A DNA stretch of 64,000 nucleotides from Polytrichum commune (lineage: Eukaryota; Streptophyta; Polytrichopsida; Polytrichales; Polytrichaceae), in assembly GCA_950295325.1 (NCBI GenBank), contig OX485809.1:38099081-38163080 (forward strand), in the 5' to 3' direction. A program made the translations under genes and the position numbers. Shown here one piece after another: positions 3,481-63,473 of this stretch (position 1 is its first letter; each line of letters begins with the position of its first letter). The notes beneath the pieces were generated by a model that had not been told where the DNA came from, made no database searches, and saw only the letters and a list, made by a program, of their open reading frames with translations.

Positions 3481-4900
3481 GTCCACCTCTCATCTCCACT
3501 ACCTCGTGCAAGTGGGGATGCTGCTATTCACCAATCCCTCGCGAGGAAAGGTAATAACAAAAGTCATTTATTGGGGACGTCTTTTGGCGTCTTGTGACAT
3601 GAATTGGGCCCCTCGTGAGAGAGTTTAATCATATTCTTGTAGGTCGCGGTCCCCCCCCCCCCCTCCTCCATTATCGTATTGAGTGTCCACATCTCAAAGA
3701 GCAAGAGTGCTCATGTTTGTATCCCAGGTGACGAAGCATGCATCGGATTCGCCTAAACTGTATGAAAAAAGAAGCCATCAAAATTCCTATGGTTTTTCAG
3801 ATGTAAGCTTGCATAGTTTATGTATAGGCAATAAGAGTTCCAAATTTCATGCTTGCTCACACTCGCCCTTGTGGTGTCCCCCCACCCCACCCCCCCAACC
3901 TAGTCCACACCATCTCCACCTCTCCTCCTCACTGCCTTGTGCAAGTGGTGGTGTTATTCACCAAACCTTTGATGAGAAAGATAAGAAAAAATTATTGATT
4001 GGGAAGGTTTTTTGCCGTTTTGTGACATCAATTGGGTCCCTTCGGGGGGGGGGGGGGGGGGAGAAAGTAAATGCCCTTGTAGGTTACGGCCTCGGACTCC
4101 CTCCATTATCATGATAAGTTTATGCATCTCAAAGAGCATGTGCGATCATGTTTGTATTCTAGATGATGAACCAAGTGCCAACGATGAAGAAAACAAGTGT
4201 CTAAACAAATTCCTAAATCAAATGAAACTTGGAGAAGCCGATGGCCATTATTTCTCGATTTCCACTCGAGTTGCGTTGGTTCGCCCGTGTTGGTTGTATT
4301 TTGGTGCAATTCTTGCAATTGAAATCTCAATTTGTGCCCCAAAAAAAATTAAAAAAAGGAGAAGCCAATAATATGTAATTGTTTCCCTATAAGTTTCACA
4401 CATGCATGCATACCGTACTACCTTTACCACATTGGGTATTTATGGTATAATATGTATTGTATTTGTATTTGTAGATTCAACAATTTGAGTTTAAGGGGGG
4501 AATTTGTTTTTTCCATATTTATTTTTTAGATTTAAAAAAATCCTTCAATGGTTTAATTAGTACCAACATGGTAAAGGTACTACAGTATTTTACAAAAATG
4601 TGATAGGAATTTCACATTTCATGCTAGCTTGACTCACCCTTGTGGTGTCTTTTTATCCCCCCCCCCCCCCAAAAAAAAATAATAATAAATCCATACCATC
4701 TCCACCTCTCATTTCCACTACCTCGTGCCATTAATGGTGCTATTTATCAATCCCTTAATAGGAAAAATTAGTGAATTAGGTCCTTCAGTCTAGTGGTTCA
4801 ATGTTCTTGTAGGTCACTGTCTTCTTCCATTACCATGTCAAGTTTCCACCTCTCAAAGAGCAAGGGCATTCATCTCTTCATCATGGATGATATAATTAGT
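3472..4900. repeat. Three degenerate internal repeat units in unit A
   Basis: Units at about 3472-3740, 3895-4170 and 4690-4900 share the order CCATCTCCACCTCTC, CCTCGTGCAAGTGG, TTGTGACATCAATTGGG, TGTAGGT(C/T)(A/G)C, and CATCTCAAAGAGCA(A/T)G followed by a TTTGTATTC-type end. The same three units recur in unit B at about 12659-12925, 13088-13350 and 13885-14130, so they predate the large duplication. Long C or G homopolymers lie inside them (C13 at 3651-3663, G18 at 4044-4061, C14 at 4657-4670). Confidence 0.75.
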
Positions 4901-12658: not shown

Positions 12659-14130
12659 TAGTCCACACCATGTCCACCTCTCATCTCCACTACCTCGTGC
12701 AAGTGGGGATGCTGCTATTCACCAATCCCTCCCGAAGAAAGGTAACGAAAGTCATTTATTAGGGACGTCTTTTGGCGTCTTGTGACATGAATTGGGCCCC
12801 TCGTGAGAGAGTTTAATCATATTCTTGTAGGTCGCGGTCCCCCCCCCCCCCCTCCTCCATTATCGTATTGAGTGTCCACATCTCAAAGAGCAAGAGTGCT
12901 CATGTTTGTATCCCAGGTGACGAAGCATGCATCGGATTCGCCTAAACTGTATGAAAAAAGGAGCCATCAAAATTCCTATGGTTTTTGAGATGTAAGCTCG
13001 CATAGTTTATATATAGGCAATAAGAGTTCCAAGTTTCATGCTTGCTCAACTCGCCCTTGTGGTGTCCCCCCACCCACCCCCCCAACCTAGTCCGCACCAT
13101 CTCCACCTCTCCTCCCTACTGCCTCGTGCAAGTGGTGGTGTTATTCACCAAACCTTTGATGAGAAAGATAAGAAAAAATTATTGATTGGGAAGGTTTTTT
13201 GCCGTTTTGTGACATCAATTGGGTCCCTTCGGGGAGGGGGGGGGGGGGGGGGAGTAAATGCCCTTGTAGGTTACGGCCTCGGACTCCCTCCATTATCATG
13301 ATAAGTTTATGCATCTTAAAGAGCATGTGCACTCATGTTTGTATTCTAGATGATGAACCAAGTGCCGACGATGAAGAAAACAAGTGCCTAAACAAATTCC
13401 TAAATCAAATGAAACTTGGAGAAGCCGATGGCCATTATTTCTCGATTTCCGCTCGGGTTGCGCTGGTTCGCCCGTGTTGGTTGTATTTTGGTGCCATTCT
13501 TGCAATCGAAATCTCAATTTGTGCCCCAAAAAAAGTATTTTAAAAAAGGAAAAGCCAATATGTGTGTAATTGTTTTCCTAGAAAGTTTCACACATGCATG
13601 CATACCGTACTACCTTTACCACATCGGGTATTTATGGTATAATATGTATTGTATTTGTATTTGTAGATTCAACAATTTGAGTTTAAGGGAGGAAATCGTT
13701 GTTTCCATATTTATTTTTTAGATTTAAAAAAATCCTTCAATGGTTTAATTAGTACCAAAGTGGTAAAGGTACTACAATATTTTACAAAGATGTGATAGGA
13801 ATTTCACATTTCATGCTAGCTTGACTCACCCTTGTGGTGTCTTTTTATCCCCCCCCCAAAAAAACAAATCAAAAATGATAAATTCATACCATCTCCACCT
13901 CTCACTTCCACTACCTCATGCCATTCATGGTGCTATTTATCAATCCCTTAATAGGAGAAATTAGTAAAATTCATGCTCATGGAAGATTTTTTGGCTATAT
14001 TGCAGTGAATTAGTCCTTCAGTCTAGTGGGTCGATGTTTTTGTAGGTCATTGTCTTCTTCCATTACCATGTCAAGTTCCCACCTCTCAAAGAGCAAGGGC
14101 ATTCATCTCTTCATCACGGATGATACAATA
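12659..14130. repeat. Three degenerate internal repeat units in unit B
   Basis: This is the counterpart of the 3472-4900 repeats, with units at about 12659-12925, 13088-13350 and 13885-14130. Homopolymers have changed length (C14 at 12839-12852, G17 at 13236-13252, C7 near 13851). The conserved spacing between the two units shows no selection for reading frame. Confidence 0.7.
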
Positions 14131-21658: not shown

Positions 21659-22230
21659 TTAACACAACAATAGAGATCATCATGAAAGAAAACCCAATTT
21701 AAATAGTAATCTACTTTTAGGCCTCTGACAAAAAAAAAATAGAACATGATTTTAGTATACCAGAGCACTATGTTGGTCCACTTTACCATGCTTGCACCCT
21801 ACACATGTAATATGACTATAACAAAATTATTAATAGAGCTTTCTTGTGCAAATCATTGGTTTTCCACATGCGTTCGATTCCTGTTCACATCTCATCCATC
21901 CATGTTTTTTACTACACCGTGGTAGTATTTTTTGTTTGATTGTGGCGTGATAATTACTTGATGATCAAATATATCTACATCATTGGAAGGACAGAAAATG
22001 AGATTCTCATCACTTTATGAATATATCAAGACCCCATACTGATGCTAAGTCTAAATATAGGTTCATTTCTTCAGAGCTTGCAATATAACTTCAAAGCTTG
22101 ACTTGTTGCCAAGCTTTGGGAAAGCTCCTACACAATGAAAGACGTTATTGCACTTTGTGAACTCCGAATAGTAACACACACTAACTAGACAATTAGTGCA
22201 GTGATTCATTTGAGTTCATGAGATCCTATG

Positions 22231-22370
22231 TACTAGGTAGCGGTCATCTACAGAGTGGCTACTGGGTGTAGCAGGGGAGCAGAACCTGCCGAGTCGCGTC
22301 AGCGACGAGGGAGGTTCTGTTCACCTGCTACACCCGGTAGCCACTCTGGATGACCTGCTACCATACGTAG
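22231..22370. repeat. 140-bp near-perfect palindrome
   Basis: The left arm (about 22231-22297) and right arm (about 22302-22370) are complementary with few mismatches around a 4-nt centre (GTCA at 22298-22301, flanked by GTCGC and GCGAC). Shared arm motifs include GAGTGGCTACTGGGTGTAGC on the left and the inverse of GCTACACCCGGTAGCCACTC on the right. It lies about 180 bp before the first ATG of the recombinase gene, so it could be a fold-back MITE, a recombinase site or a promoter element. Confidence 0.8.
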
Positions 22371-22552
22371 CCGATGAAGGATCTCAAAAATAGTTACCTG
22401 CCTACCAGTTACTACTAGGTACCTTCCTTGTTGGCGGGAGGTAGGAATTTCAAAAGTGTCACGCCGAGCTATCTCCAACACTTCTATTCTCAGTTTAGGC
22501 TTTTTGTGCTCTGTCAGTTCTGTCTTTGTTGTCTGCCAGTCTTGTCGCTGTC

Positions 22553-25500
22553 ATGGAAGGTAATTAAGAGGATGGTGACGTTGAGCAACATCAACCTATG
22601 CCGTCATTCAAGTTGTTTAGTGATGACGATGAGTTGGAGAGGCCGTTAGAAGTTGGTGCTTCAAGGGGTAGAAAGAAGGGACGTTCTGGCACCAAGTTTC
22701 GTGGATCTGGAAGGCGCAGTCGAGGTTGAGGACGAGGACAAGCTCCTGTGCATCGTGATTCACATGGTGTCGAAGAGATCTATGTTCCATCAGAAACATC
22801 TTTGTTGAATTCATCACAGTTTGCTTGTGGTGCAGATGGCGTTTTGTTGAGTGATAGCCATAATGTTGTTTCAAGTGTGCAAACTGTTTGTATTGACGCA
22901 CCTCCATCCTCAGATGTTCGTGTTGATGGTGTTGATTCGAACATTGTGAGAAGCAACACTATTCCCAATGTTTTGAATGCACCAGTGTTTGTGAACACTA
23001 CTGTGTGTGCAAATCTCACAACTGCTGCATCCGTAAATGCTACCTTCATAAATGGGACAAGAAGTGATGGCAATCCAAGCTCTAGTTCTGTGCATCTTGG
23101 GGAGGTTCCAGTGCATGCTAGTGAGTTTCCACTCCAAGATAGATCTTCACAGGACCTTGTTGTGCATGTGGCACATGCGATTGTTCCATCTTCCTCGGAA
23201 TTTCTGGATTTAGATCAAGAGGATTTCAATAGTGTCCAAAATGGCGATGAATCGAATAGTTACCAAAACGAGAGGTGGTGTATCAATAGATTTAATGCTT
23301 GGCGTAGGCACATGAATATCCCCACTGATATCCCCGTGGAAAAGATTCCACTACAAGAACTTGGTGTGATTCTTAGCAAGTTCTTTTTGATGGTTTGCAA
23401 GGTTGATGGCAGCAGGTATCCAACCGAGTCCATCAAAAACCTCTTGATGTCTTTCAATCGCATAATTCTAAGAGAGCAGAAAACTCGCATCAATCTGACT
23501 GGGAATGAGGAGGTTGAGTTCAATATTCAGAGGCATCCGTGGTTTATTAGTGCTTGTCGCGCCGTACAAAAGGCAATGACCAAAAGTAAGGATCTAGGGG
23601 CCAATAAACCTCGGAGGAAAGTCGATCCTCTAATTTATGAGCAGGAGAAGTTAATCTTGGCCCATCCTTTACATCAGGTTACATTTGCTCATGGGATTCA
23701 CAAGAGAATGGCCTTTTACTGTTTTATTGTCTTCCTCATCAGAGGTAACACTGAATTGTGGAAGGTAATGGTCAAGGACTTCACAATTGAAGTGGATCAA
23801 CGTGGACGTGAGTTCTTGAAGTAGGTGTCCTCTCTTCAGAATCCATCAATTTTTAGAATCTACAAGTGCCTTTGTTGTATCTGTATATGTGCATTAAAGT
23901 TCTGAGTATGAGCGTAATATTATTCTCATTTGAATGGCCTTTGGTCTTGAGGTTCAGAATGATGCATGACTAACAACTTCAGTAATTAGGTGTCTACAGG
24001 CCTGCTCGGAGTCTCAAACATTTTCGGTAGTTTGAGTATGAACATATTAACAATATTGATATGTTGTGCAGGTACGATGAGCGTACTTCAAAGAACCACA
24101 AAGTTACACTCAGCAGGTTCCAAGAGGAACACTTCAGGAGGCCAGTAGTTTCTTTCAATCCTGATGTAGTAGCCACATTTCGAGCTCTTTTGTCTCATAT
24201 GCCAACCAACTCAGAGCATGGTCATCTATTTCTTGCTGCAATTGTCAATCCACGCTCTAATATTTGGTTCAGAAGTGGCATCAATGTTGGTGAGTCAGCT
24301 ATGAGAAACTGGATGCGTCAGATGTGTAAGACAGTAGGTCTAGTTGGTGATTTTACTAATAAATCAGGGAGAGTGACTGCAATTTCACGCATGTCAGCAG
24401 GTATGGTCCCTAGAAAAGCAATCGCTTCAGTTACTGGTCATCGTGATGAAAAGACTCTTGAAAGGTACGATAGAACGTTGCAATTGCAACAAAACGCTGC
24501 CCAAGCTCTTTGTAGGGAACCTTACGATGAGGATGGTAATCCTCTTACATATGAAGACCATTATCGCAGGCAAATGGAGCATTACCATGCGCATGAAAAT
24601 GTGCTAGAGGATAGTACATCAGAACTTCCTCCCTCTCATGGAAGTGGCATCCAACAAGGTTTTGGTGGTCGACTCCAGATCCGATCTGCACCGGACCAGG
24701 TTGAGGAACAAAATTTTGTTTCTGAAGCTTTTGAGGAAGATGTTCATAATACGAGTGAAAATGATGATGAAATTGTTGTTTGTCCTGAAGTTCAAGAGTG
24801 TGGCCAAAATTTAGACGATCCTTCTATTCTCCCACCAACAAAGACTAGGAGATTTGATTCCACTTCGCATGTCAGATTCCAGGTTCCTCCTACTACAATT
24901 CCCCATGCAAGTGCCTTTCGTCCAAGTAATGTGCACAGTGCATTTCGTCCAGTAGCTTTTTGCCGACCTCATGTGCCGCCTCCAATATACAGACCTCAAG
25001 CGGCTCCATTGCAGAGGCAATTTTATACCCCTTCAAGGCCTTTTAATCATGTGTACAAACCATACGATATCTATCGTGATAGGGTTTTTGCTCCTCCGCC
25101 GAGGCCTATGGCTCCTTATCAACATGTTCAGTCTATTGGTCAGGCAAATCCCGGTAACATCAGGACAGGTTGCGGTAACATACCATATGTTGTGACACCT
25201 AATACGTCTACCCCGGAAGCTGTGTGGTTAGAGTACGTTAAAGAATGCTGGAATTATGAATGGACATCTTTTGAGAAAGAAGATTTCAGTCATCACATCC
25301 CGGCTACTACTGTTGATGCTGTAAATTTACCGTGTGTCCAAGCTGTTTCAAGTGGTCAATGTGCAGAAACTAATGATGTTAATCAGGTCATGCAAGATGC
25401 TGAGAGGAATAACCAACAAGTTGGTGAAGGAGTTGCAGTATTGAATCCCGTGGCATTGCAACAAGTTGATGTCCCTAGGCAAGCTGATGTTGGTCGAATT

Positions 25501-25617
25501 CAGTTCCATGCTGGAGTTCACCACCACTACAATATTGTTTTAGGCGATCCCATCTCTTTGTCAAGAGTTTTGGAGAATATATTCCAACGAACTGGACGTG
25601 ATGGTTCAGGGAATTAA
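22553..25617 (+). CDS. Crypton/DUF3504-type tyrosine recombinase gene
   Basis: The main exons are about 22731-23820 and 24072-25617, joined across a 251-bp intron (donor AA|GTAGGT, acceptor TTGTGCAG|G) that restores KYDERTSKNHK. The N-terminal part is Ser/Asn-rich. Next comes a SAM-like helical domain (INRFNAWRRHMNIPTD, then DGSRYPTESIKNLL), followed by a catalytic domain. Catalytic positions are the box I Arg in IRGNTELWKV (codon 23741), the box II Arg in NKSGRVTAISRM (24370; the usual HxxR His is Lys here), the His in TGHRDEKTLERY (24439) and the nucleophile Tyr (24466). This order matches Crypton YRs and the animal ZMYM2/QRICH1/KCTD1 recombinase-derived domains. The C-terminal 250 residues are acidic, then Pro/Arg-rich. 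The start is unclear. ATG 22553 is followed in frame by TAA (22565) and TGA (22727), but an intron from donor AAG|GTAATT (22560) to 22730 would remove both. Otherwise translation could only begin at 23312. From codon 22748 the frame runs 872 residues. Confidence 0.8.
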
Positions 25618-27255
25618 TGCAGGAAGATTAGTGCAAACCCAGTGCAGGTATGCGATTGAATTAATTGTGCTGGCACCTTTGAGCATGGGTTGATCTGTAG
25701 CTAATTCCTCTGCCTGCATTAATTTGTGCAATGATCTGTAGCTGGTTGTTCATGTGCCTGCCTTACTTTGTTTTCGATCATCCTCCTGGATATAGATTGC
25801 ACCCTAGCTTGATAATTTCTGAAGCTAAATGTGTTTTTGGTGTGAATGGTTAGCATATTTTGTGTTTTGTTTTGTTTCGAATAATCTGTTTTGTTCCGGA
25901 AGTCTTTTTCAGCAATGTAATGTTGAGTGGAACTTTGAATGTATTTGCAGGTGGGTACATTGTCATGGGCTCCCGCACCTCTGGTAAGACTGAGGTGGCT
26001 ACCACCCCAGCTACATGAGACCAATTTGTTCCTTAGAATACAACAACACGTCTTCAGGTGTCATTCTGGAGGTCATTATGTGAACGAACCTCTGAATTTG
26101 AGCAGGATATGAGGTGCTTAGCTCATACTGCAAAAGAGGCCTTACCTGCCTCATGTTTTTAATCCATTTGGTAGAAAGAGGTGTTTGAATATAGTGTATT
26201 AATGCACTATTCATTTGCAAGCACCCACCCGATGGTTTTGGAAGGTCCTAGAGCTAGAATAGGCTGTCAATAGATGTTGCATTAGACCCCTAACCTGTGA
26301 GGTTGATTGGACCTTGCTCCAGTCCAAGTTCCTTGGATCAACACTAGATTCATGCAAAAGAACACATAAGCTTAGTAGAGGAGATGTTTGTGCTTTATAT
26401 GGCATCGATCTTGAGCATCCAAGATGTCAAATGGTGGCTTGTGCACTCTCATTGTCAATTCTGAAATCATTCATCAGATGCTCAACAAAAATAAAAGCAG
26501 GGGGAGAAGTATGTAAGCACCCCTTGTCGTGTCTCCTGGTAAGTGTTGGGTTCTATTTGTCTCTGAATTGTCAATTGATCTGGTATTAGTGTAGTTGTAC
26601 ATCACTTTTTTGGTAGTTAACCAATTTGAAAATCCATGGAATGATTCACAAGAGGTTTAGCCTATTGGCTAGCAAACTGTACCATTGGTTTTTGTGTACC
26701 TGAGCTGTTTGATTGAGGAAAGGCATACAAAAATTCTTGCATACTGCTGTGGAACCTTAATGTGAAGAGGTCACCTTTTTGCAGCAATTCCCTATTTGAT
26801 GGTGTTGGAACATGTGCAGATAAGATTTAAACCATTCTAGGTTCAATAGCTAATGCAATTGGGTAGGGTCTATATGATTGTTTAAAGTGAGAATATTTAC
26901 TTCGACCCCTTATAACTATTGCATCTCACCTTGATTCTGAAACTTGCAATGACAATCTCCAAGCTGACGGATCAATCATTCCAACAGATTTCACCAGCTG
27001 ATGTGGCTAGGGTGCAATCGATCTCCAGGTGGATGATCGTATGCAAATTAACGCAAGCACTGAAACATCTAGCTACCTACAGATCAATGCACAAATTCGA
27101 TAGTCCCGGCACACTTCACCGCAAAAAGTTCCAAAATCAAAGGCAGGGTGCAAGACGATCTCCAGAAGCACGATGAGCTACAACGGAGAGAAAGAGAAAA
27201 GATATTTGAAAATGGATTCCCGCCCATTTGGGGCTAATTGGTGTAATAATCTAGT
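25618..27255. other. 3' region of the recombinase gene with a dispersed inverted repeat
   Basis: No further gene is supported. About 25735-25830 is repeated in inverted orientation at about 27005-27100 (shared motifs GCTAGGGTGCAATC, CCAGG(T/A)GGATGATCG and ACAGATCA(A/T)TGCACAAA). These could be the 3' UTR and a rearranged copy of it, or the ends of an element to the right of the gene. Confidence 0.55.
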
Positions 27256-27665
27256 CACGGGTAGATCACTCCATTGTCAAGTTGAACACCACGTGCGACC
27301 AAAAAAAACCTTCTTTTGGTAAGTTGCACCACCAAAATGGGTCAAAATTTTATCAAAATTTTATCATGAGTAGATATGCACAGTACTTATGACATAGTCA
27401 AAAAAGGTAACTAAATTTGATGATTTGTTTTTTTCATAAAACATACCATTTCTAACTAGAATGACACAAAATTGAACTAAAACAATTACTAAAAAAAATA
27501 AAGATGACTAAAAATTTCAAAAAAGTATTCAAAAGATACTATCAATGGTTATGTATATGTAGAAAAAATATCATAAATTTTAAAATTATATATGGCATGT
27601 AATATAGGGGTAGCAAACTTTGTCCGCACATGGTGTCAACTTGACAATGAAGTGACCTCTCCGTG
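27256..27665. mobile_element. 410-bp hAT-like MITE, copy A
   Basis: The element has perfect 8-bp flanks AATCTAGT (27248-27255 and 27666-27673). The terminal inverted repeat begins CACGG and includes CATTGTCAAGTTGA and ACACCACGTGCG. It is the reverse-orientation sister of 63474-63882. It carries no transposase. Confidence 0.92.
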
Positions 27666-28188
27666 AATCTAGTCCCACATGGTGAAAAGGGTAGGTAAGT
27701 AGGTCGGAACAAGTTAGGTAGGTCGCAACACAGTAGGTCGCTATGGTCTTGGACCGTCCAGTGGAGAGCCAATGGGACTTCGCCACATCAGCTTCTATAT
27801 CTCCAGAATCGGCTACGTAACACATACTTGACCCAACCAATGGTAAGATCCAGGAAAAACATAACTCAGGATTGTAGGATTGTAGATGTAAGCCTTGATT
27901 AAAACAAAGGTAATTGAGATTATTAGTTGAGGAAAAGGTTATTCAAGTTCAACTTTGTCAGTTTGCAAGAGCCCCTTTACTGGTTTGCATATGAGAATGT
28001 AGAGATCATCAGGCATCTAGTCCATGGTCTCAGGACCCTTGTAATCCATCCCAACCATTAATTCTATGCTTATATCCTGCTGAGGATAAATTGTGTTGAA
28101 ATCTAGCTATGAGCTATTTTTGACATGCTCCATATGCAAGCACATTAGAAAAAAAACTGTTTGTAGCTAAAAATGAACCAGATTGCAA

Positions 28189-29303: not shown

Positions 29304-31250
29304 TTGGTGGACAAGTTAGAGCCCAGCCCAGAAGCCGGAGTTTGAATACCACTAGCTCCAACATTTGCCGGAATAGACTGAGCCAGCAGCTGTTGCTGCT
29401 GTTGTTGCTGTGATTGACCCCCCAGCTGGACTCCATTGCCCAATGTTTGTGCAGCATTCCGCATTGCAAGAGCTGCTGCAGAACGAGACCACAAAGATAT
29501 TTATTTCAACCTCTAGGCACAGAGCCGAATCCAAATGTATGTGGCTGCTTTACTAGACCTAATTGGAACCCCTGGACTGAAACTCTTCAACCACAATGTC
29601 ATCACCTCATCCCGAACAACTGCAGTGAATTCTCAACTGCAAACAACCACATTGTGATTCTTCCATTATTATCATTTGTTTGTCTACTATGTCTAGTCTT
29701 TCGCACTGACCTGCATCCACCGGTTTCATTGCTGCCTGACCTGCTGCCTGAGGCACTGGAACACCATCCCTGGCTTGCGATGGATTACCATTGGCCTTGG
29801 TCTCAAGAGACAGCATCTTCAGGGCGATCTTTCGAAGGTAGTCTTGCTGAAAGATACGCCAATCATTTCAGATACCGTTAGCTATGAAACCTATTACCAA
29901 ATCCTTTGAGATTGCCTACTTACGTTGGATAAACTAACGATAGAGAACATTTGAAACCTATTGTGATGCATGACCTGATCCGCAGAGAAAGCTTCTGTGA
30001 CCTCAACGAGCTGGCATTGTAGAGTACCTGGTCTGTTGCAGCCTGAAAGATCTTCTCTTCAAATCGCGATGCTATCATAAAAAGCTCGTCTACACCATCC
30101 TACCCTGCCACTGGCATGTGTCGTTGAAAAGTGTCCGTTCTGCATCAACAAGAAACAAAGCCAATTCCTACATTTCAATTACAACATGACTTCCCCACAT
30201 GATCACAGCCATTCATATGCTATGCTTAACCTCGGACTCCACCACCTCCATAACAACGATCGGGGAGAACCGGCAGTTAGTTACAGATGAACAGGTTGAG
30301 TTTGAGAAATAACCGGTTGAAGTTCAAGACTGCAGGAAAATTACCGATCATTTTAGAGGAATTCATAGAATATGCCCTAATTTAATAAAGGAAAACCGGA
30401 GGATGTCAACATATAACCGGTTGGACTTGCAAACATTAGGATCTCAACCGATTATGCCCAAAAATCTCCCCGATCACTGCTCCATAACCTGAGAACTGGT
30501 TCCAACATACCTGTACAATAAGTTCCAAACGTATACTTGAACAGACCATATTTTCCTTGCCCAATTTTGGTTATATTTCTAAAATATGAGGGAAACACAC
30601 AATCCCAACGCAATGCCTATTCTCGTAATCACACCTTTAAAATATCACAGGAGGGCCACGTATTGCGTTTGCCTGTATAAACTCTGTCAGCATATACTCT
30701 GTCTGCCTCGAACCACAACCTGCAACTCAAACTTACATTCTTTTCACTATTTTTAGACGAGAGCCATTTGTCAACGATTCCCGCCAGGAGTTCTCCATCG
30801 TTGAGGTCGCTCAATCAGACCCAACAATTTCTGTGCTTGCAAGGGATCTGTAGATGGTATGTTCCAATTTGTACTACCTCCAAATGAAAGGCCTAAACAG
30901 GGACAGCATACGGACAAACCAATCCACAAGCAAATAAGTAACAGCCATTATATCCGATTCCGAAGAAGAGAACTCTAAAATTTACACTCTCCAGTAGCCA
31001 ATGGCTCCCAACCTTCACAACACAATCTTTCTAGGCCACCAAATAAAGACCCCAACTTTGAAACCCTACTGGCACCGATCCAACCCGAACAGAGAATGCG
31101 TAATCGGATGAGCTCTGGCGATCAACTAGAGACCAATTGACGATAGAGGCCATGTTCAGACACCCAGAAATTCATCTCAAATCCGAAATGAGGAGATCCA
31201 TACACGAAGTGAGCAAACACTCAAATTCTTGGTAGTGCACTCTGGGTGGT
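29304..31250 (-). pseudogene. MED15: MED15-like copy C, decayed
   Basis: This is a third copy of the minus-strand KIX region. The KIX exon (30139-30028) has ATG changed to ACG and a TAG stop at 30102-30100 where copies A and B read CAG (MPVAGQDG). Exon 29846-29711 still reads QDYLRKISLKMLSLETK. The Gln-rich exon from 29475 has a contracted Q tract and breaks off near 29304 within GLGSNLST. The region upstream on the minus strand (30480-31250) also matches 1590-2335 of unit A, so copy C was cut from the same source as unit A. Copy C is interrupted by a 225-bp MITE at 30255-30479. It cannot make a KIX protein. Confidence 0.85.
30255..30479. mobile_element. 225-bp MITE with 9-bp target duplication, copy 1
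   Basis: CTCCATAAC is duplicated exactly at 30246-30254 and 30480-30488. MED15 copies A and B carry the uninterrupted site (CTCCATAACCTGAGAAC near 1582 and 10180). The ends are related inverted sequences (AACGATCGGGGAGA against CAGTGATCGGGGAGA). The 9-bp duplication indicates mobilisation by a Mutator-like transposase. The interior contains AACCGGTT palindromes. Confidence 0.92.
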
Positions 31251-34691: not shown

Positions 34692-35975
34692 CAGTCTAAC
34701 CTTGATAATGTCACACCATCCGTTTCACCAAAAAGAGTGATATAAACAAGGTGTGACATATTTGATAATGTCACGTTTTGAAGATTTGTGCATAATGTGA
34801 TATTATCAAAAAATAGGTAGAAAATCAAAATAAAATTATAATGTAAAAAAGAAAATAACAAATACGAGACTTCAATGTTTTTGAATGTAAAATCTAATTC
34901 AAAATTGTGAATAACAACAAGAGCACATCATAATGTGTCATTGAGATCAGGTAAAGACCTCTCACTAGAGACAAAGAAGTTTCTAATGTCACATTGTTTT
35001 GTTGATGTTAAATGTGCAACACCAATTCTAATGAGTTTGTCATGGATTTTTTTCCATTCCTAACAACTCCAGAGTGTTGAAAATCTGAGAACCTTGGCTA
35101 GCCATAAAATTCAAAACATCTTTAGCATATTTTTGTGCATCGCTTAGCTTCACTACTTTAGACTCATCATCACTTCTATCAACAATCAATGGGTCTACTT
35201 CCATGGAATCAAGAACATGTTTGCCATCTTGCACTAATTGCACAAGCTCCTCAGTAGAATATTCCACCTCAAAATCATCTTCACCTTCCATGTTTATGTA
35301 CTCCAAAGGACAAAGCTTTTCTATAGGCTTGCCTTCGACATCTAAACCCAAATTCAATGCGGCGATGAGATTGCCCAATTCCAAAGCTGCTTCCTCCATT
35401 TTGGACTTCAAACATTCATCAAAATTATTGATATCTGCATTCCATTTTGTAGGCATATGGCGGATTTTCTCCAACAATTTCTAATGGTTTGATCATCTAA
35501 TTCATGCCGTGCCGCCACACACCATAGCATTGCTTGAAATAGATCAACATTCAGTTTCCCCAAATCTCCATTTGAGTTGTTATCAATTTGTTGCAAAGTC
35601 CAGGCAACAAGCTTGCGCTTATAGCACATTTTGAATGTTGCAATCACTCCTTGATCCAAAGGTTGAACAACTGAAGTCACATTTGGTGGAAGGAACAAGA
35701 TAGTGATATGGGAGAGTACAAAAGCATTAAACCCATCTATAACTTTTTTGACTATCTATCTATCTACAATATGTCCATCCAACCATCACATACAATCCAT
35801 CCATACTTGGTATTATCACATTTACACTACGGATTTTGGAAAAAAATAGTGACATTACCAAGGGTGATAGGGATAATAACGAGGGAGTTTTACACTATGA
35901 AAATCGGTTTCAAACTTTTAGGTGACAATATCAAGGTGTTCTATTAACAAGGGTGACATTATCAAGGTTAGATTG
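34692..35975. mobile_element. Pogo/Tigger-like element (1284 bp) with TA duplication
   Basis: The left end CAGTCTAACCTTGATAATGT and the inverse of the right end (CAATCTAACCTTGATAATGT) match at 19 of 20 bases. TA flanks both sides (34690-34691 and 35976-35977), as for Tc1-mariner/pogo. Sub-terminal GTGACATTATCAAGG motifs recur. The interior carries a minus-strand transposase remnant, so this is an internally deleted or decayed element. Confidence 0.88.
35040..35698 (-). pseudogene. Pogo/Tigger-like DDE transposase C-terminal remnant
   Basis: The upstream frame (35698-35408) opens FLPPNVTSVVQPLDQGVIAT, the signature of DDE_1 (CENPB/jerky/Tigger) transposases after the second catalytic Asp. It then continues through ARHELDDQTIRNCWRKS. 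A frameshift near 35455-35460 moves the sequence into a second frame (35477-35040) that gives MPTKWNADINNFDE and an acidic tail with EYSTEELVQLVQDG. The N-terminal helix-turn-helix domains and first catalytic Asp are absent. It is non-functional, but the family is clear. Confidence 0.8.
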
Positions 35976-39455: not shown

Positions 39456-39465
39456 CTATGTATTA

Positions 39466-39579
39466 GGTAATCGTTTTATTGGAACTGGTTATCAGTGCAG
39501 AACCGGTTCTGTCAAGGTGGCGAGCCAGCTTGACAGAACCGGTTCTGCACCGATAACCGGTTCCAATAAAATGATTACC
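39466..39579. repeat. 51-bp-arm palindrome with AACCGGTT cores
   Basis: The left arm 39466-39516 and right arm 39529-39579 are complementary with only a few mismatches around a 12-nt loop (GTGGCGAGCCAG). Each arm contains GAACCGGTTCTG and a TAACCGGTTCC or AACTGGTTATC site. Further AACCGGTT sites follow at 39586 and 39754. It adjoins the fold-back element 38592-39455. Confidence 0.88.
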
Positions 39580-40700
39580 GGACGTAACCGGTTGGCCGCT
39601 TTGTTGAGCCGCGCAGGTGACCTAAACAGTGGGTCACATGTCACCATAACCGATTTAGATGATCATAACCGGCTGGGATGTCGAGGTTATCGTCTGCAAA
39701 CATGTGTGCTCAGAGCCAATCGTGTAGTGCCACCTCGGCAAAACAAAACGGCCAACCGGTTACGGATGCTTCAACCCTAAATAGTGTGACTTGCAAAGAT
39801 GGTCTTGAAAACCTGTATCGTGATGGTTTCGTGTGTGAAGAGCGAGATGTTGGTCAAATTAATGTGTGTGGCCGAGTGAAGTGTGGAAGACACAGTGAAA
39901 GCCTCAATGATTGTCACCCGAATCTTTAGCGCCAACTCATTACATTGTGCCACAAAGGATACCCCACTTGAGTCTGGCTGGCCATGCAGCAGATGCTGGG
40001 AACCCTATTCTACTTTCTCACATTTTCCATTCATTAATAAAAGGAATTTATATTGGCAGTCAAAGCTGGCTCCAAGGGCCGCCCACTTGCTTTCCTTTCA
40101 CACACTCAAGCCAAGAGCCGGCCGTGACCATGAAATCTCGAGAGCCCAAAAGAAAGCATCCAAAAGGCCGTCCAAAGACACTTCCCGGATCATGTAACGT
40201 TACCCGTAAGCAGTTTTGAATGAGTTTAGTAGTACAAATGTGATACTAGAGTGATTTTTCACATGTATATATGGAGGTTGAAATCACAACATTCAACAAA
40301 GAAAGTCACAACTCATATATATCCCAGTAATGAAATTATCTAAATTTTTCAAAGGCAAGATTCCCTCCCAACTCATATTCACAGCATAGGTCGACCTATT
40401 TCCGATAATTGGAAGATGAAAACTTGAGGATAATCAGTGACCTTTTCAAGGAACCCAGTCCATGCCAATCAAGCTTACTTCTTCTTCTCCTTCCATCATG
40501 CCAAATGTGACAACAACATGTGTGAAGCTTCATGGCTTTAGGGGATTTTATGTATGAAGATTGGGGTGGGGGGGGGTATCAAAAATGGGTATGTCTGCCA
40601 TGGTGTGGTCATGGGTCCTCAAGTGTAGTGTGAAGACATATGTGACAGGCTTTTAGCCACATGCCATTTCAATGAATTTCTATTCATGTGGGGCCCTCAC

Positions 40701-51318: not shown

Positions 51319-54300
51319 ATGGGAAGATTCAAGGTGGTCCTACTCCTACTGGGCCTTAGCAGTTTTGCCATGCATTTGAATTTTGCATCAGCACAAAACA
51401 ACAGCATCCCCCAGTACACTCTGGGTTTCTTAACCCCTGCAGCTGCCTCCGAAATCCCAACCAGCTTAGCTATTGAATGGTGAGTGCCAACAACTCCTGC
51501 TTCACATATCCAACATGATGAATTATGTGTGGAGTGTACAAATTTGGAAATCGGGAGTGTGTCAATGCACAAATAAGATAAATCTACGTTTTTTTCCTCA
51601 GGCAATGAAGAATTACGCATTTTTCTGTCCTCAAAGGCCTAGTTAACCCCTCAACGCTTTTGGAGCCATATTTGGGCCCCTCTCATACATACAACGTGAA
51701 TATACATAGTGATGTGAATTTTTGGTAGATAGGGACAGCTTGTTGTCTTGCAAAGTGACATTTCTTGACACTCGCACAAAGGAACTTCGAAAGAGTTTGA
51801 TGAAGATTTCATATCATCATGTCTAAAGAGAGAACACAACTAGTATGAAACTGCTAAGAGCATTTAGGGTCAATATGGAAATTCAACTTCGGGACATGAG
51901 AAATTGCTGGCCTGAAGCAATTTTAACCCTCTTCATGACAATTCTCCTATTGTCAAATACAACCTAGATTGACCTTTCTCTTAACATCATGTCACCGTGA
52001 CAGGCAATGAAGCATCAAGCCTTTGTCACCAGAAGAGGCTTAGTTAACTGATTAGGTCAAAGATTTTGCTAATACATGAGGTTAACTGCTCATACTGTCA
52101 AGTTTACACCATAGATTGATCTCTCTCTTAACACCATGTCACCATGACAAGCAACGACGTTAAGTATTTGTCATCATCAGAGGCTTAGTTATATGATTAG
52201 ATCTAATTTGTTGCTAACAGATCAGGTTAACTGCTCCTATTGTCAAGTTTATCATTATACCACAGATTGATTTCTCTCTTGACATGTTTCACCATGACAG
52301 GCAATGAAGAATGTAAGCCATTGTCATCATCAGAGGCTTAGTTAACTGATTATGTTCAATTTATTGCTAACAGATTGGGTTAAGTGCTCCTATTGTCAAG
52401 TTTATTATAATACCACAAATCTCTCTCTCTCTCTGTGCTTACCATGATGTTGTCACCCGTGACAGGGAATCTGCGTTCCGAGTGGCTGTGGAGGTGGAGA
52501 ATTCCAAACCTGGGCGTGCTTACAAATTGGTGCCTCACTCAGAATACAGTGATTGTGATTGGCAAACTGCATATCATGGGGCACAGGCAATTGCGACACT
52601 GGACACTAACACTTATCCTCCTGTCATTGGAGTTGTAGGACCAGCTTGCAGCGGGGCAGCCATGTCCTCTGTGGCACCCTTGAAACCCCTTAATATCTCC
52701 ATGGTCTCTTTTGCTGCCACTGCAGAGCCTATCACCGTGGACCGATCTTGGTTCTTCAATTTGTTCCGCACAGTGTAAGCCTCCTAGATCATTCAGAGCT
52801 TTTGGTTTTCCCATTAGACTTATCCTCTAACTCAACATGACTTTGGTCGGAAGTTGGTTAGATTGCATACAACATCTTCCATGTTTGGTAAGTTTCTGGT
52901 CCATGCTTTGGAGGTTTGTCATGTGGAGGTCTGAACAAGGACTATTGTATATTGGTTGGTTGAGGGTCAAACTCATTCTGGCATGCTGAGAGGTGCGAAA
53001 ATGAGTTTGGCCCTCAATGAACCAAACTAGGTTGCTCTTTATTCATATTCAAACACTACCTCAGAGCATGCACCACAATTGGAAAGAGATTATTGATATT
53101 GGATGCAAAACGATCAATGGAAAATCATAGAGGGACCAGCTCCTGATGAAAAGTCCTGTTGAATTAAAGGGTGACTCTAGCGAATGTCTGGAACTCCAAA
53201 ATTAGCCAGCAAAATTTTCATATTTTTTGATACCAGTAGGGTGTGGATATTTGAAGATATCTTTGTTTTTGGTGCTATTCTGGTCTACATAGCATGTAAG
53301 AACCTAGGAAAAATCGCCCTAGTATCAATATGGTTTGGAATGGTAATCACCCAAAAAATAAATAGGGTATACAATGATTCTCTCGCTGCCTTGACATACC
53401 CACCAAATATCAATATTTGACTAGTATTACAATTTTGATATCCACGGGTAGGTGCTTTGATACCATTATTGGTGTTGATTATTGATACCATGCATTCACC
53501 TTATATACCAGACTAACACTGGTCATTTCCTCCTGATATTTTGCAGCAATTCTGACTACATATATGCTGTTATGAAACAGGTACAATGACAAGTTTCAAG
53601 CACAAGCTGTTGCAGCCAGTGTACGTTGTTCACACGCTTTTCTTTTCTTTTTAAAATTAATTTTTTTTCCTCATGAACAATATTCGTATGACAGCTCCCA
53701 TAGCTGTAACCTTTTTCTTAAACTACTTTGAGTGTGCCCTGGCACTTTAAGGTAGATGTGTGTTATTTGGATACTTTTTTCTTTGCACTCACTTCTTGTA
53801 GGATATGGAACACATTGCAATTAGTGCGAGATTATTAGCAAATCCAAATCATGCCTGTTGCCATTTGCCTCATAATTTCTGGAGCTTGTATGATTGTCTA
53901 ATTCGCTATCAAAGCGAAGATTCTCATGCTCATTAATTGATCATATAGGTCCTGTCACAAATCATTTGACTATCGAGCCTAGAATGGTTAGCATATTTTG
54001 AGCATGTAATCCAATCTCTTTTTAAACACTTGATGCCTTTTGGTGTCCATTCTTAGATCCACACCTAACTACATACCACTCAAAACATAGGTGCCAAGAT
54101 TATTGTTGTGTTGGAAGTAGGCATGTCTACATTAACTGTGGATCTCAGTATATCAGAATGAAAATAGAGCCTGGCTAGTTACGCTCTTTTAGCATGCTGA
54201 CACTCTTGGGGTTGTTGGTTACAGATTGCAAAGTTGAATATGACTAGCGCCACGCTTATTCATACGAAGCAATACTATTCGGCCAACTTAGCCCAAGACA

Positions 54301-61095: not shown

Positions 61096-63473
61096 GCTCC
61101 TTCTCTTACATCTCAAGCCCCAGGGAATGGATGTTTTCAATTTAAATCTCACTCCTTGTTCTCACATTTCCCTCTCATATATCATGGGTTTGGCCTTGAC
61201 ATATGGGTTGCCAGATCCTTTCGGAGGAAGCACTACACTGATTATCCCAACTAGTGAAGGTCATACGAAATTTCTTTATGCTATGAAATTAGTGCCACCA
61301 AAAGATCTAGGAAGCATTGCTCATCCCGACATTATTCATTGAAAATATCTATCATTTATAGCAACAATGTTCATGGAAAGTGTCGGTACTTGGCACTATT
61401 CATTGATAAGGATGTGGAATGCACTAGTTTTCCCGAGATCTACGGTAAATGAGCATGTGTCCATGAATTTAGTGTCACTTAGTAAAAAAAATAAGCCTTA
61501 AGTAATTTTGAGATTTGGCTAAATATTGTGTGCTTTGGAATTAGTACCACCCTCACTACTTGAGTTAATCAGTGGTAGAATTACCTTGGCCCATTTACCT
61601 TTATGACATGTTACACCTTTTTCTCAACAATTTACCCTCATGGTTGAGGCGTGGGAAAGGAAGGGGGGGGGGGGGGGAACCATATGATCATTTATTGAGC
61701 TCCAATATCCTCATTTTGATAATGAATGAAATATTCATATGAGCTTTGAAAATTATGAGGACATTAGTGGCCTCAATTTGAATATGCCAATCATAGAATA
61801 CTCATGAGTTCCATATCCTACAAGAAATGAAGTAGTTGGAAAAAGTAACCATTTAAGACCCATCTACCTTAAACTAGGAGCTTATTCAAGTGCAATTCAT
61901 TTAAAATGCACCAAGTTATGTTATGTGCATTTGCACCTATATATGTACATGCCTCGCATTTGTATCATGGTGTGCTACATTGACTTGTTGTGTGTGCACA
62001 TAACTCATGCTATACCTCCACTTGGTTCTTATTTTTGTGAGGACCCTTTAACAAATGATTTGTATCCAAATTTACCCTTTAACATTAGGTGTTCACAATA
62101 GGTCACAATCCAAAATAAGTGCATCTAACTTACTTGTGGTCAATCTTAGCAACATAGAACTTGTTTAGAAGGTTTTTCAATAGTATATTGACAATACATG
62201 TCTTGCATAATATTCTTCAATTATTATGCTTTGCAGAGCCCAACACCTAGGGCCCCATATGGTTGCATGAACATCCAAATATTTGAATATTTTATTTCTT
62301 CTAAATTTGATTTTTACAATAGGGGAGGCTTCCAAAACCTGGAGAGTCCAAGGCGACGAAAGCGCATACAATGATCAATCCCATAAAAAGATATCACAAA
62401 AAGCCTTATAATTGTAAACAATATGCACATCAATGTACATTTGCCTGAAACAATGAATGAAATTATGAATTATTCATAATGATCAATAAATTGTTTGTAC
62501 CTGACAAGGTTAGATGTAAACAAACAAAGTCCATTGATCAATGTTATGTGTCCTCAACACATATGGGTTAATGTCTAGGTGTAAGTAATTTAGCTTATCT
62601 ATAAATGGAAATTGGAGTTGGGTTTGAATAGTAGTAGATTTTGATACCCACTAGTAGCATCAAATTTTGTAACTACAATCAAACCTTTTGATGTAATTTC
62701 TCTAATGCAAAGGTCAATCTCCCTTCCTATCTATTCATGTAGTTGTATGTATGTTATATGAGTGGTACATTTATGTAAGCAATGATGTTTGTTTTGTGTA
62801 TATTATCTTATTTTTATGGGATGGGCCAGTATTTTTGGATGTAGAAGTGCATTAGGAACTCTAAATGTATGAAGTTCCAACAATGATCCTCTTATATTTG
62901 TGCAAACTAGTTCAATTTGGATGCACATTAATGTTGTAGAGGGTTGGTGCAACACTTGCTGGCCTAAGATGTTGTTAAGTGCTTAAAATGTATGATATGT
63001 GCATGTTGATCCTCTCATATATTTGCAAACTAGTTGAACTTGGAATCTTTTGGAGGTTTAAAGGATTGATGCAATTTAATTTTGTAATAATGAGCATGTC
63101 CAATTTCAAAAGGTAGCAAACTTTCCCCTTAGTTTGTGGTGTGTGTGTGGCCACATGCAAATTGCAAATATGAATATGAGGCCACTTATCCAATTACTAT
63201 ATCAAATATGGGGCCATTGTGCACCATATCAAAGTATACACATAGCCTTGATTTTTCCCTTGTACAATTAAAATTTTCCACATGGATTGACGCATAAGTC
63301 TTGTGCATTCGTCACATACTCCCTTTACCTCTACATAAATGACAAGTAGCAATTTTCAAATTTCTTTTTTTGGGATATTTTTGTCTTAATTTTGTGGTTC
63401 TCCTTTTATTAAAACATTTGCAATGTTTGAGACTTTCATTTGAGACAATTTGACATTTGAAGTGTAATGATAT
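61096..63473. other. Intergenic, repeats only
   Basis: The stretch contains the 61230-61540 partner of 34180-34470, a G15 run (61663-61677), and a roughly 125-bp tandem duplication near 62850-63075 (GATCCTCT(T/C)ATAT, TGCAAACTAGTT(C/G)AA(T/C)TTGG). I see no supported gene. Confidence 0.5.

Follow-up and report, generated by a model that had tools for sequence, protein, structure and literature searches.

A Crypton-like transposon of Polytrichum commune with its own tyrosine recombinase and a probable folded single-stranded attachment site

The presence of a spliced gene with the hallmarks of a tyrosine recombinase (YR) in the green plant Polytrichum commune raises the question of whether it is a host gene or part of a mobile element and, if the latter, how such an element might move. 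The window, the whole 64,000-nucleotide stretch of DNA analyzed here, corresponds to C7:38099081-38163080 of a 408-Mb assembly in 64 contigs, nearly all of which is accounted for by seven contigs of 42 to 78 Mb. The gene consists of the following parts:

22553..23820 (+): YR exon 1, broken by TAA at 22565 and TGA at 22727
23821..24071 (+): YR intron, GT-AG, 251 nt
24072..25617 (+): YR exon 2, the catalytic part (box II KxxR, TGH, Tyr) with a long Pro-rich tail

The open frames 22730-23820 and 24072-25614 join via the GT-AG intron to read ...FLK^YDERTSKNHK..., and the spliced product displays, as a first-pass annotation of this DNA had recognized, an N-terminal DGSRYPTES motif as well as the box I Arg (FLIRGNTEL), box II K-S-G-R, TGH, and Tyr in the right order. 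Its frame from the ATG at 22553 proves to be interrupted by the two early in-frame stops; other copies have CAA at the site of the TAA and no stop at the site of the TGA. Hence, the window copy is dead, barring an unseen exon that bypasses both.

Profile searches with exon 2 recover Phage_integrase (E 0.0018, below the gathering score), and those with exon 1, for which a SAM-like fold had been claimed, recover QRICH1 weakly (E 0.14). Among the cores of four families, three match Phage_integrase (best E 2.9e-5), two QRICH1 (best E 0.039), and one DUF3504 (PF12012; E 0.0089). The window protein has no match to PF12012, falling short of its curated cut-off, and a search of the genome for this domain was empty, with the search's own controls silent too. 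The proposed membership in DUF3504 is accordingly not borne out, and the likeness of the family to it is, at the sequence level, a weak resemblance only. A four-row profile reaches the integrase structure 3nkh in the PDB at E 9e-4, with the KxxR of the family opposite HxxR; a single-sequence PDB search with the window protein retrieved nothing relevant, and a structure model of exon 2 alone has a pLDDT of 47.6, too low for use as fold evidence. The catalytic R, (H/K), R, H, and Y of the superfamily are present in order: R163, K286, R289, H312, and Y321 of the 333-aa core are invariant in all four family cores, the other rows of which are 37 to 57% identical to the group I core of the window. 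Between families, pS is 0.82 to 0.89, which is close to saturation, and pN is 0.30 to 0.36. On these motifs and profile matches, the window gene is a real tyrosine recombinase. The substitution of Lys for the box II His had been noted correctly, and the doubt that it cast on activity is eased: as the Lys is invariant in the four aligned families, including group III with its open frames, it looks like a family trait rather than decay.

The window gene is one dead copy of a multicopy YR transposon, not a host gene. At least 72 protein matches of the core, counted exon by exon, are found in the genome. Near-identical group I copies lie at C7:30.50, C7:30.53, C6:44.09, and C6:38.46 Mb, and partial copies are found on C2 and C1; the two copies near C7:30.5 Mb share flanks and represent a segmental duplication. 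All four full-length group I copies that we examined (the window copy and those at C7:30.50, C6:44.09, and C6:38.46 Mb) contain a stop or frameshift. The genome holds at least three families (I, IIb, and III), with unrelated end sequences and a common anatomy. Family IIb has YR copies at C3:58.74 and C4:47.81 Mb, and family III has copies at C1:16.57, C2:64.88, C7:37.82, and C6:38.54 Mb, of which those on C1 and C7 have long open frames for both predicted exons and, over 3.2 kb, share 98% identity, their flanks being different. Inside the 3.2-kb group III copies A and C, the frames of at least 100 aa encode the YR only, barring a single further frame of about 100 aa that A has at its right end. 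Neither reverse transcriptase nor RNase H was detected by Pfam in the scanned window frames or by eye among the group III frames of at least 100 aa.

The earlier suggestion of a Crypton-like YR in a plant genome is upheld by the YR motifs, the profile matches, and the chlorophyll a/b-binding genes of the same assembly. A search for the latter gave 58 matches on six of the seven large contigs and none on C3, which argues against contamination; with the copies themselves on chromosome-size contigs, this explanation is ruled out. One run at C5:1751760-1846160 comprises 14 chlorophyll a/b-binding genes of equal score within 95 kb. As for a viral or prokaryotic origin, no relative was confirmed in viral contigs (by single sequence and profile) or prokaryotic genomes (by profile).

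Comparison of copies shows that the mobile unit extends well beyond the bounds of 22553..25617 initially given to the feature and permits the following map:

22230..27816 (+): whole group I element, 5,587 bp including a 409-bp foreign insert; ends common to C7 and C6 copies with other flanks
22230..22236 (+): element-side spacer GTACTAG, 7 nt, at the left end; seen in 6/6 group I left ends read
22237..22361 (+): left palindrome with imperfect arms L and L' (inverted repeat 22251-22297/22302-22348); one stem on folding
22362..22366 (+): inner spacer, 5 nt; on the other strand GTATG in 5/6 group I copies and ATATG in one
22367..22375 (+): R', repeating the right terminus in inverted orientation; the match is exact over 9 nt in family I
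27257..27665 (no strand): 409-bp insert, not the element's own; its ends are inverted repeats, the 9-bp AATCTAGTC flanks it at left and right, and the C7:30.50 Mb copy lacks it
27808..27816 (+): right terminus R (ATCGGCTAC), with the target G next at 27817
39460..39763 (+): 304-bp nonautonomous element of the sister family IIb, with the same anatomy

The 409-bp insert is presumably a Mutator-type MITE, and a similar stretch seems to be present near 63454. In the region corresponding to 25864-27666, the C6 copies (L032 and L033) and the C7 copies (L031) have different 3' modules, which follow the YR gene and reach up to the final 150 bp, as though they had been swapped. The description of the locus as a single copy in the window does not extend to the family, as the short IIb derivative lies in it too.

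The order L-L'-R'-gene-R recurs in families I, IIb, and III in unrelated sequence. The exact complement of R' to the right terminus spans 9 nt in I, 22 nt in IIb, and 18 nt in III, and in all three the spacer is 7 nt at the joint versus 5 nt inside. By this layout, the joint R|L would, in a circle, face an inverted near-copy of itself (L'R'). The joint spacer is GTACTAG in 6/6 copies of family I; in family IIb, it is GTATTAG in 22/23 and the inner one GTCCG in 22/23, with the 7- and 5-nt lengths kept in all 23; in family III, the two are GTACTAG and GCCAG, each in 2/2 copies. The arms flanking the joint are inverted repeats (CGGCTAC/GTAGCGG in I and CGGTTAC/GTAACCG in IIb).

Folding R together with L-L'-R' as single-stranded DNA predicts a single hairpin that runs across the joint and has unpaired bases immediately after AC^G, with z values of -18.1 (I), -16.7 (IIb), and -23.9 (III) against 100 shuffles each. 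Most of this stability comes from the L-L' palindrome alone, which accounts for -60.8 of -85.3 kcal/mol in the IIb element of the window. The element's own R contributes a further 12.2 kcal/mol in I, 28.2 in IIb, and 23.8 in III, a gain matched by 0/200 random window 24-mers in each case; for the short IIb element of the window, it adds 24.5, compared with 15.5 for the best of 300 random 24-mers. Sequence and folding energy are thus those of an attachment site formed by the folding of one strand with unequal spacers, as in CTXphi and integrons, and we infer that the ends may fold as single strands in the cell. In group III, R' is followed by a further inverted copy of a part of itself (GGACCGTATGTC..GACATACGGTC), a second small hairpin unseen in the other families. 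Further, a solo 77-bp near-perfect palindrome (L034, C1:28596562-28596638) consists of the group I left end twice and lies, in reverse orientation, in the target sequence that also forms the left flank of the C1:28.606 Mb copy.

The anatomy is not universal among the relatives. Family IIa (C2:14.66, C3:3.92, and C4:18.2 Mb) has a related YR and a right end that agrees in three copies; at its provisional left end, we saw a short R'-like arm only and no palindrome. In view of this arm and of a C2 left flank that ends in a high-copy repeat, IIa was kept out of the counts; if it truly lacks a palindrome, then the latter is not essential for every relative. The L-L'-R'...R signature is also absent at the YR loci C3:49.38, C7:14.42, C2:54.81, C4:58.84, and C7:9.74 Mb and in a shorter stretch of the YR locus at C1:45.63 Mb.

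The insertion rule was derived from 36 insertions (23 IIb, 9 III, and 4 I). Besides IIa, these exclude C7:30.53 Mb as the segmental duplicate of C7:30.50, C1:28.606 Mb, whose right end was not found in 6 kb, the partial copies at C2:6.52 and C1:31.99 Mb, and the solo palindrome at C1:28.597 Mb. The element spacer is at the left in 36/36, a regularity that is partly built in by selection, since copies were in part chosen by a match to the left end. The first base of the right flank is G in 35/36, and at spacer positions 2 to 7 this flank agrees with the element in 20, 12, 9, 10, 11, and 10 of the 36, respectively. On the target side, position -3 is T in 26/36, -2 is A in 32/36, and -1 is T in 28/36. 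No insertion (0/36) has a flanking direct repeat of more than 3 bp, and the 4- to 6-bp terminal direct repeats of fungal and stramenopile Crypton groups are not seen here. The sole insertion without the target G, III_L109, is also alone in having a flanking repeat longer than 1 bp (3 bp).

Empty sites were sought for 35 of the 36 insertions (all except III_C6) and for two of IIa, with 40 candidates scored per search where several hundred to several thousand were available. For at least 15 of the 35, a relative spanned the joint, and 13 were read; spanning matches outside the 13 are those of L072 (equal length) and L077 (2 nt shorter). The empty site is exact for 11 of the 13: L075 (6/6 relatives read, of many), L082, L084 (2/2), L085, L086 (2/2), L087, L091 (3/3), I_C7a (3/3), III_A (5/6 relatives, one having a small alignment gap), L110 (2/2, one with a 1-bp gap nearby), and L089 (12/12, most relatives with only 15 to 24 nt at the right). 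The two inexact cases are III_B, which differs by 9 bp from a single relative at 77% and has also lost L' and R' by deletion, and I_C6b, which differs by 2 to 3 bp from five relatives at 73 to 76%. The exact sites indicate that entry usually occurs at about TAT^G, with nothing gained or lost.

Short derivatives in general retain R, the palindrome, and at least part of R'. For the IIb head, we count 222 candidate places in the genome, and among 40 scored, the match starts at nt 1 in 39 and at nt 4 in one. The IIb derivatives (20 fetched and one in the window) measure 268 to 304 bp, and 10 of these 21 keep the full 22-nt R' complement, the rest keeping less. The five group III derivatives (255 to 265 bp) consist of the first 135 to 145 nt and the last 115 to 118 nt of the full element, with an R' of 11 nt in three and 17 nt in one and with its first base changed in another. 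Two of them are identical to the full element over the first 135 nt, a sequence match that suggests recent movement of group III derivatives.

Taking these findings together, we consider it likely that these are Crypton-like DNA transposons with their own tyrosine recombinase and a folded single-stranded attachment site. We lean slightly toward a broader proposal, namely, that they represent a eukaryotic lineage that integrates as folded single-stranded DNA by means of its own YR, with a left end that carries a mismatched inverted copy of the circle joint. Integron and CTXphi recombination would thereby have a counterpart in eukaryotes, and plants a Crypton-like lineage, with copies whose frames are open and with short derivatives that probably number in the hundreds. 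In such a mechanism, R and L would meet in a circle or in exposed single-stranded DNA, and the R|L joint would pair with the inner L'R' copy to yield a double-stranded YR site whose spacer includes unpaired bases. At AC^G in the joint and TAT^G in the target, the YR might then exchange a single strand, and the mismatch would stop the second exchange. Replication would finish the integration, so that the 7-nt spacer of the element ends up on the left and the right side keeps the sequence of the target. Folding in the cell, the choice of strand, and completion by replication are steps that we infer.

Classical double-strand exchange by YRs either employs a homologous spacer, which yields a 6- to 8-bp repeat, or leaves a mixed spacer that should resolve to either side. 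Neither such a repeat nor a two-sided spacer was found, with the caveat that copies were selected partly by their left ends, whereas exchange of one strand followed by replication predicts the observed pattern; the one-sided spacer in the 36 insertions is thus indirect support for single-strand exchange, subject to the same selection. Against the folded site stand the R' of only 9 nt in family I, that of 11 nt in three of the five group III derivatives and its alteration in a fourth, the seeming lack of a palindrome in IIa, the five further YR loci devoid of the signature, the 2/13 inexact empty sites, and III_L109 with its missing target G.

One alternative is that a double-stranded circle is integrated by the YR with a nonhomologous spacer, a Tn916-like mode, with repair or replication always keeping the element spacer at the left and with the palindrome and R' serving as extra binding sites or regulatory sequence. 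We regard this as possible, if doubtful. The YR motifs and the arms at the joint, which are inverted repeats as in double-stranded YR sites, are in keeping with it, as are the apparent lack of a palindrome in IIa and the movement as double-stranded circles envisaged for fungal Cryptons, at least in excerpts of PMC3212892. However, a mixed spacer should then land on either side, whereas it is at the left in all 36 insertions (with the selection caveat) and the start is at nt 1 in 39 of the 40 scored IIb places; R' and the 7- versus 5-nt spacers of three families would also be left unexplained. A DIRS-like process, in which the inner L'R' copy acts as a template or splint that joins both ends into a circle, draws on the internal complementary regions of DIRS1, which match both termini and go with the absence of target duplication (PMC3266345, in part) and are laid out like L'R'. 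We judge this improbable, since copying of the inner 5-nt spacer would yield 5-nt joints, whereas the element ends carry 7 nt, and since the 3.2-kb group III copies A and C have no long frame besides the YR and none for a reverse transcriptase.

It is still less likely, and in our view very improbable, that the ends are mobilized by another enzyme, such as a Helitron-type Rep/helicase, with the YR as a passenger. Helitrons insert precisely without target duplication and have a hairpin near one end, and the present elements resemble them in both respects. Yet, three families with different YRs, at 37 to 57% identity to the group I core, each hold a YR between such ends, and a 7-nt spacer flanked by inverted arms is in keeping with a YR site. 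The first-pass annotation had favored either domestication or a plant Crypton lineage. The first of these, for which the intron, the long tail, and purifying selection between families might speak, can be set aside for the window copy as extremely unlikely: an active transposon lineage gives the same selection, and a single, intact copy without mobile ends is not what we see. Rather, domestication fails because of copy number (the 72 genome matches), several families with defined ends at unrelated sites, and lesions, comprising the two stops of the window copy and the damage in the three other full-length group I copies examined.

How do these elements relate to known systems? The Cryptons of Kojima and Jurka come from fungi, animals, and stramenopiles and have 4- to 6-bp direct repeats or, in the animal groups, none (PMC3212892, excerpts); Table 1 of that paper lists no plant, with Chlamydomonas named merely in a tree legend in the portion at hand, and a review of plant transposable elements calls Cryptons rare in eukaryotes in the part available (PMC11630846). 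The plant elements resemble them in the presence of a YR as the only long frame of the small group III element, in the scattered eukaryotic distribution of hosts (PMC3212892), in weak similarity to the animal DUF3504/QRICH1 derivatives, and in short nonautonomous derivatives that outnumber the full ones. They differ in lacking the 4- to 6-bp repeats, in possessing the palindrome and R', and in having Lys for the box II His. DIRS1-like elements likewise possess a YR and inverted termini, together with an internal region that complements the two ends, and duplicate no target sequence (PMC3266345, excerpts), but in the plant elements no reverse transcriptase was seen and the inner spacer is shorter than the joint.

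Parallels in mechanism are suggested by bacterial systems, integrons and a filamentous phage being the cases in which such a folded integration site has so far been known. CTXphi, which XerCD integrates at dif, has two inverted sites about 90 bp apart with spacers of, e.g., 12 and 7 nt; it combines facing inverted sites and unequal spacers, as do the plant elements with their 7- and 5-nt spacers, with folding of one strand and exchange of one strand, as the latter would (PMC3089051, in part). The phage, however, has a single-stranded genome, host recombinases, and a fixed target, whereas the plant element has its own YR, a loose TATG target, and a putative single strand. In integron cassettes, unpaired bases halt the second exchange, and attC x attI recombination uses, as we propose for the plant elements, a folded site recognized by structure, unpaired bases, microhomology only at the point of exchange, and completion by replication (passages of PMC4792948); integrons are bacterial, with attI as the target, and their apparent likeness to the plant elements is structural. 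The SE elements are YR elements with strand-biased circularization in which one specific strand is exchanged; they are bacterial, and their sites show no inverted repeat structure in the sections of PMC9345347 available.

Among the papers listed in a literature search over titles and the starts of abstracts, with most subscription journals outside its scope, none reports a plant Crypton or such ends, so that an earlier description is possible; by title, none of those listed for folded single-stranded YR sites concerns a eukaryotic element. Crypton movement has so far been proposed by analogy only, with a double-stranded circle. The plant elements supply defined ends, empty sites, a target rule, a testable folded substrate, and many natural short derivatives. 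If our proposal is correct, single-strand integration by YRs extends beyond bacteria, plants harbor a lineage of YR transposons that the surveys consulted do not include, and a class of short plant repeats is explained.

The window contains other features besides these elements. At 35411-35755 (-), there is a fragment of a Tigger/pogo-like DDE_1 transposase (E 6.9e-17). Two pairs of near-identical frames (3985-4368 with 13172-13540 and 845-1207 with 29414-29878) are probably other repeats. Finally, a match to ANF_receptor, the receptor family ligand-binding region, at 52371-52775 (+; E 9.1e-8) in a green plant may belong to a class C receptor-like gene at about 52 to 58 kb of the window.
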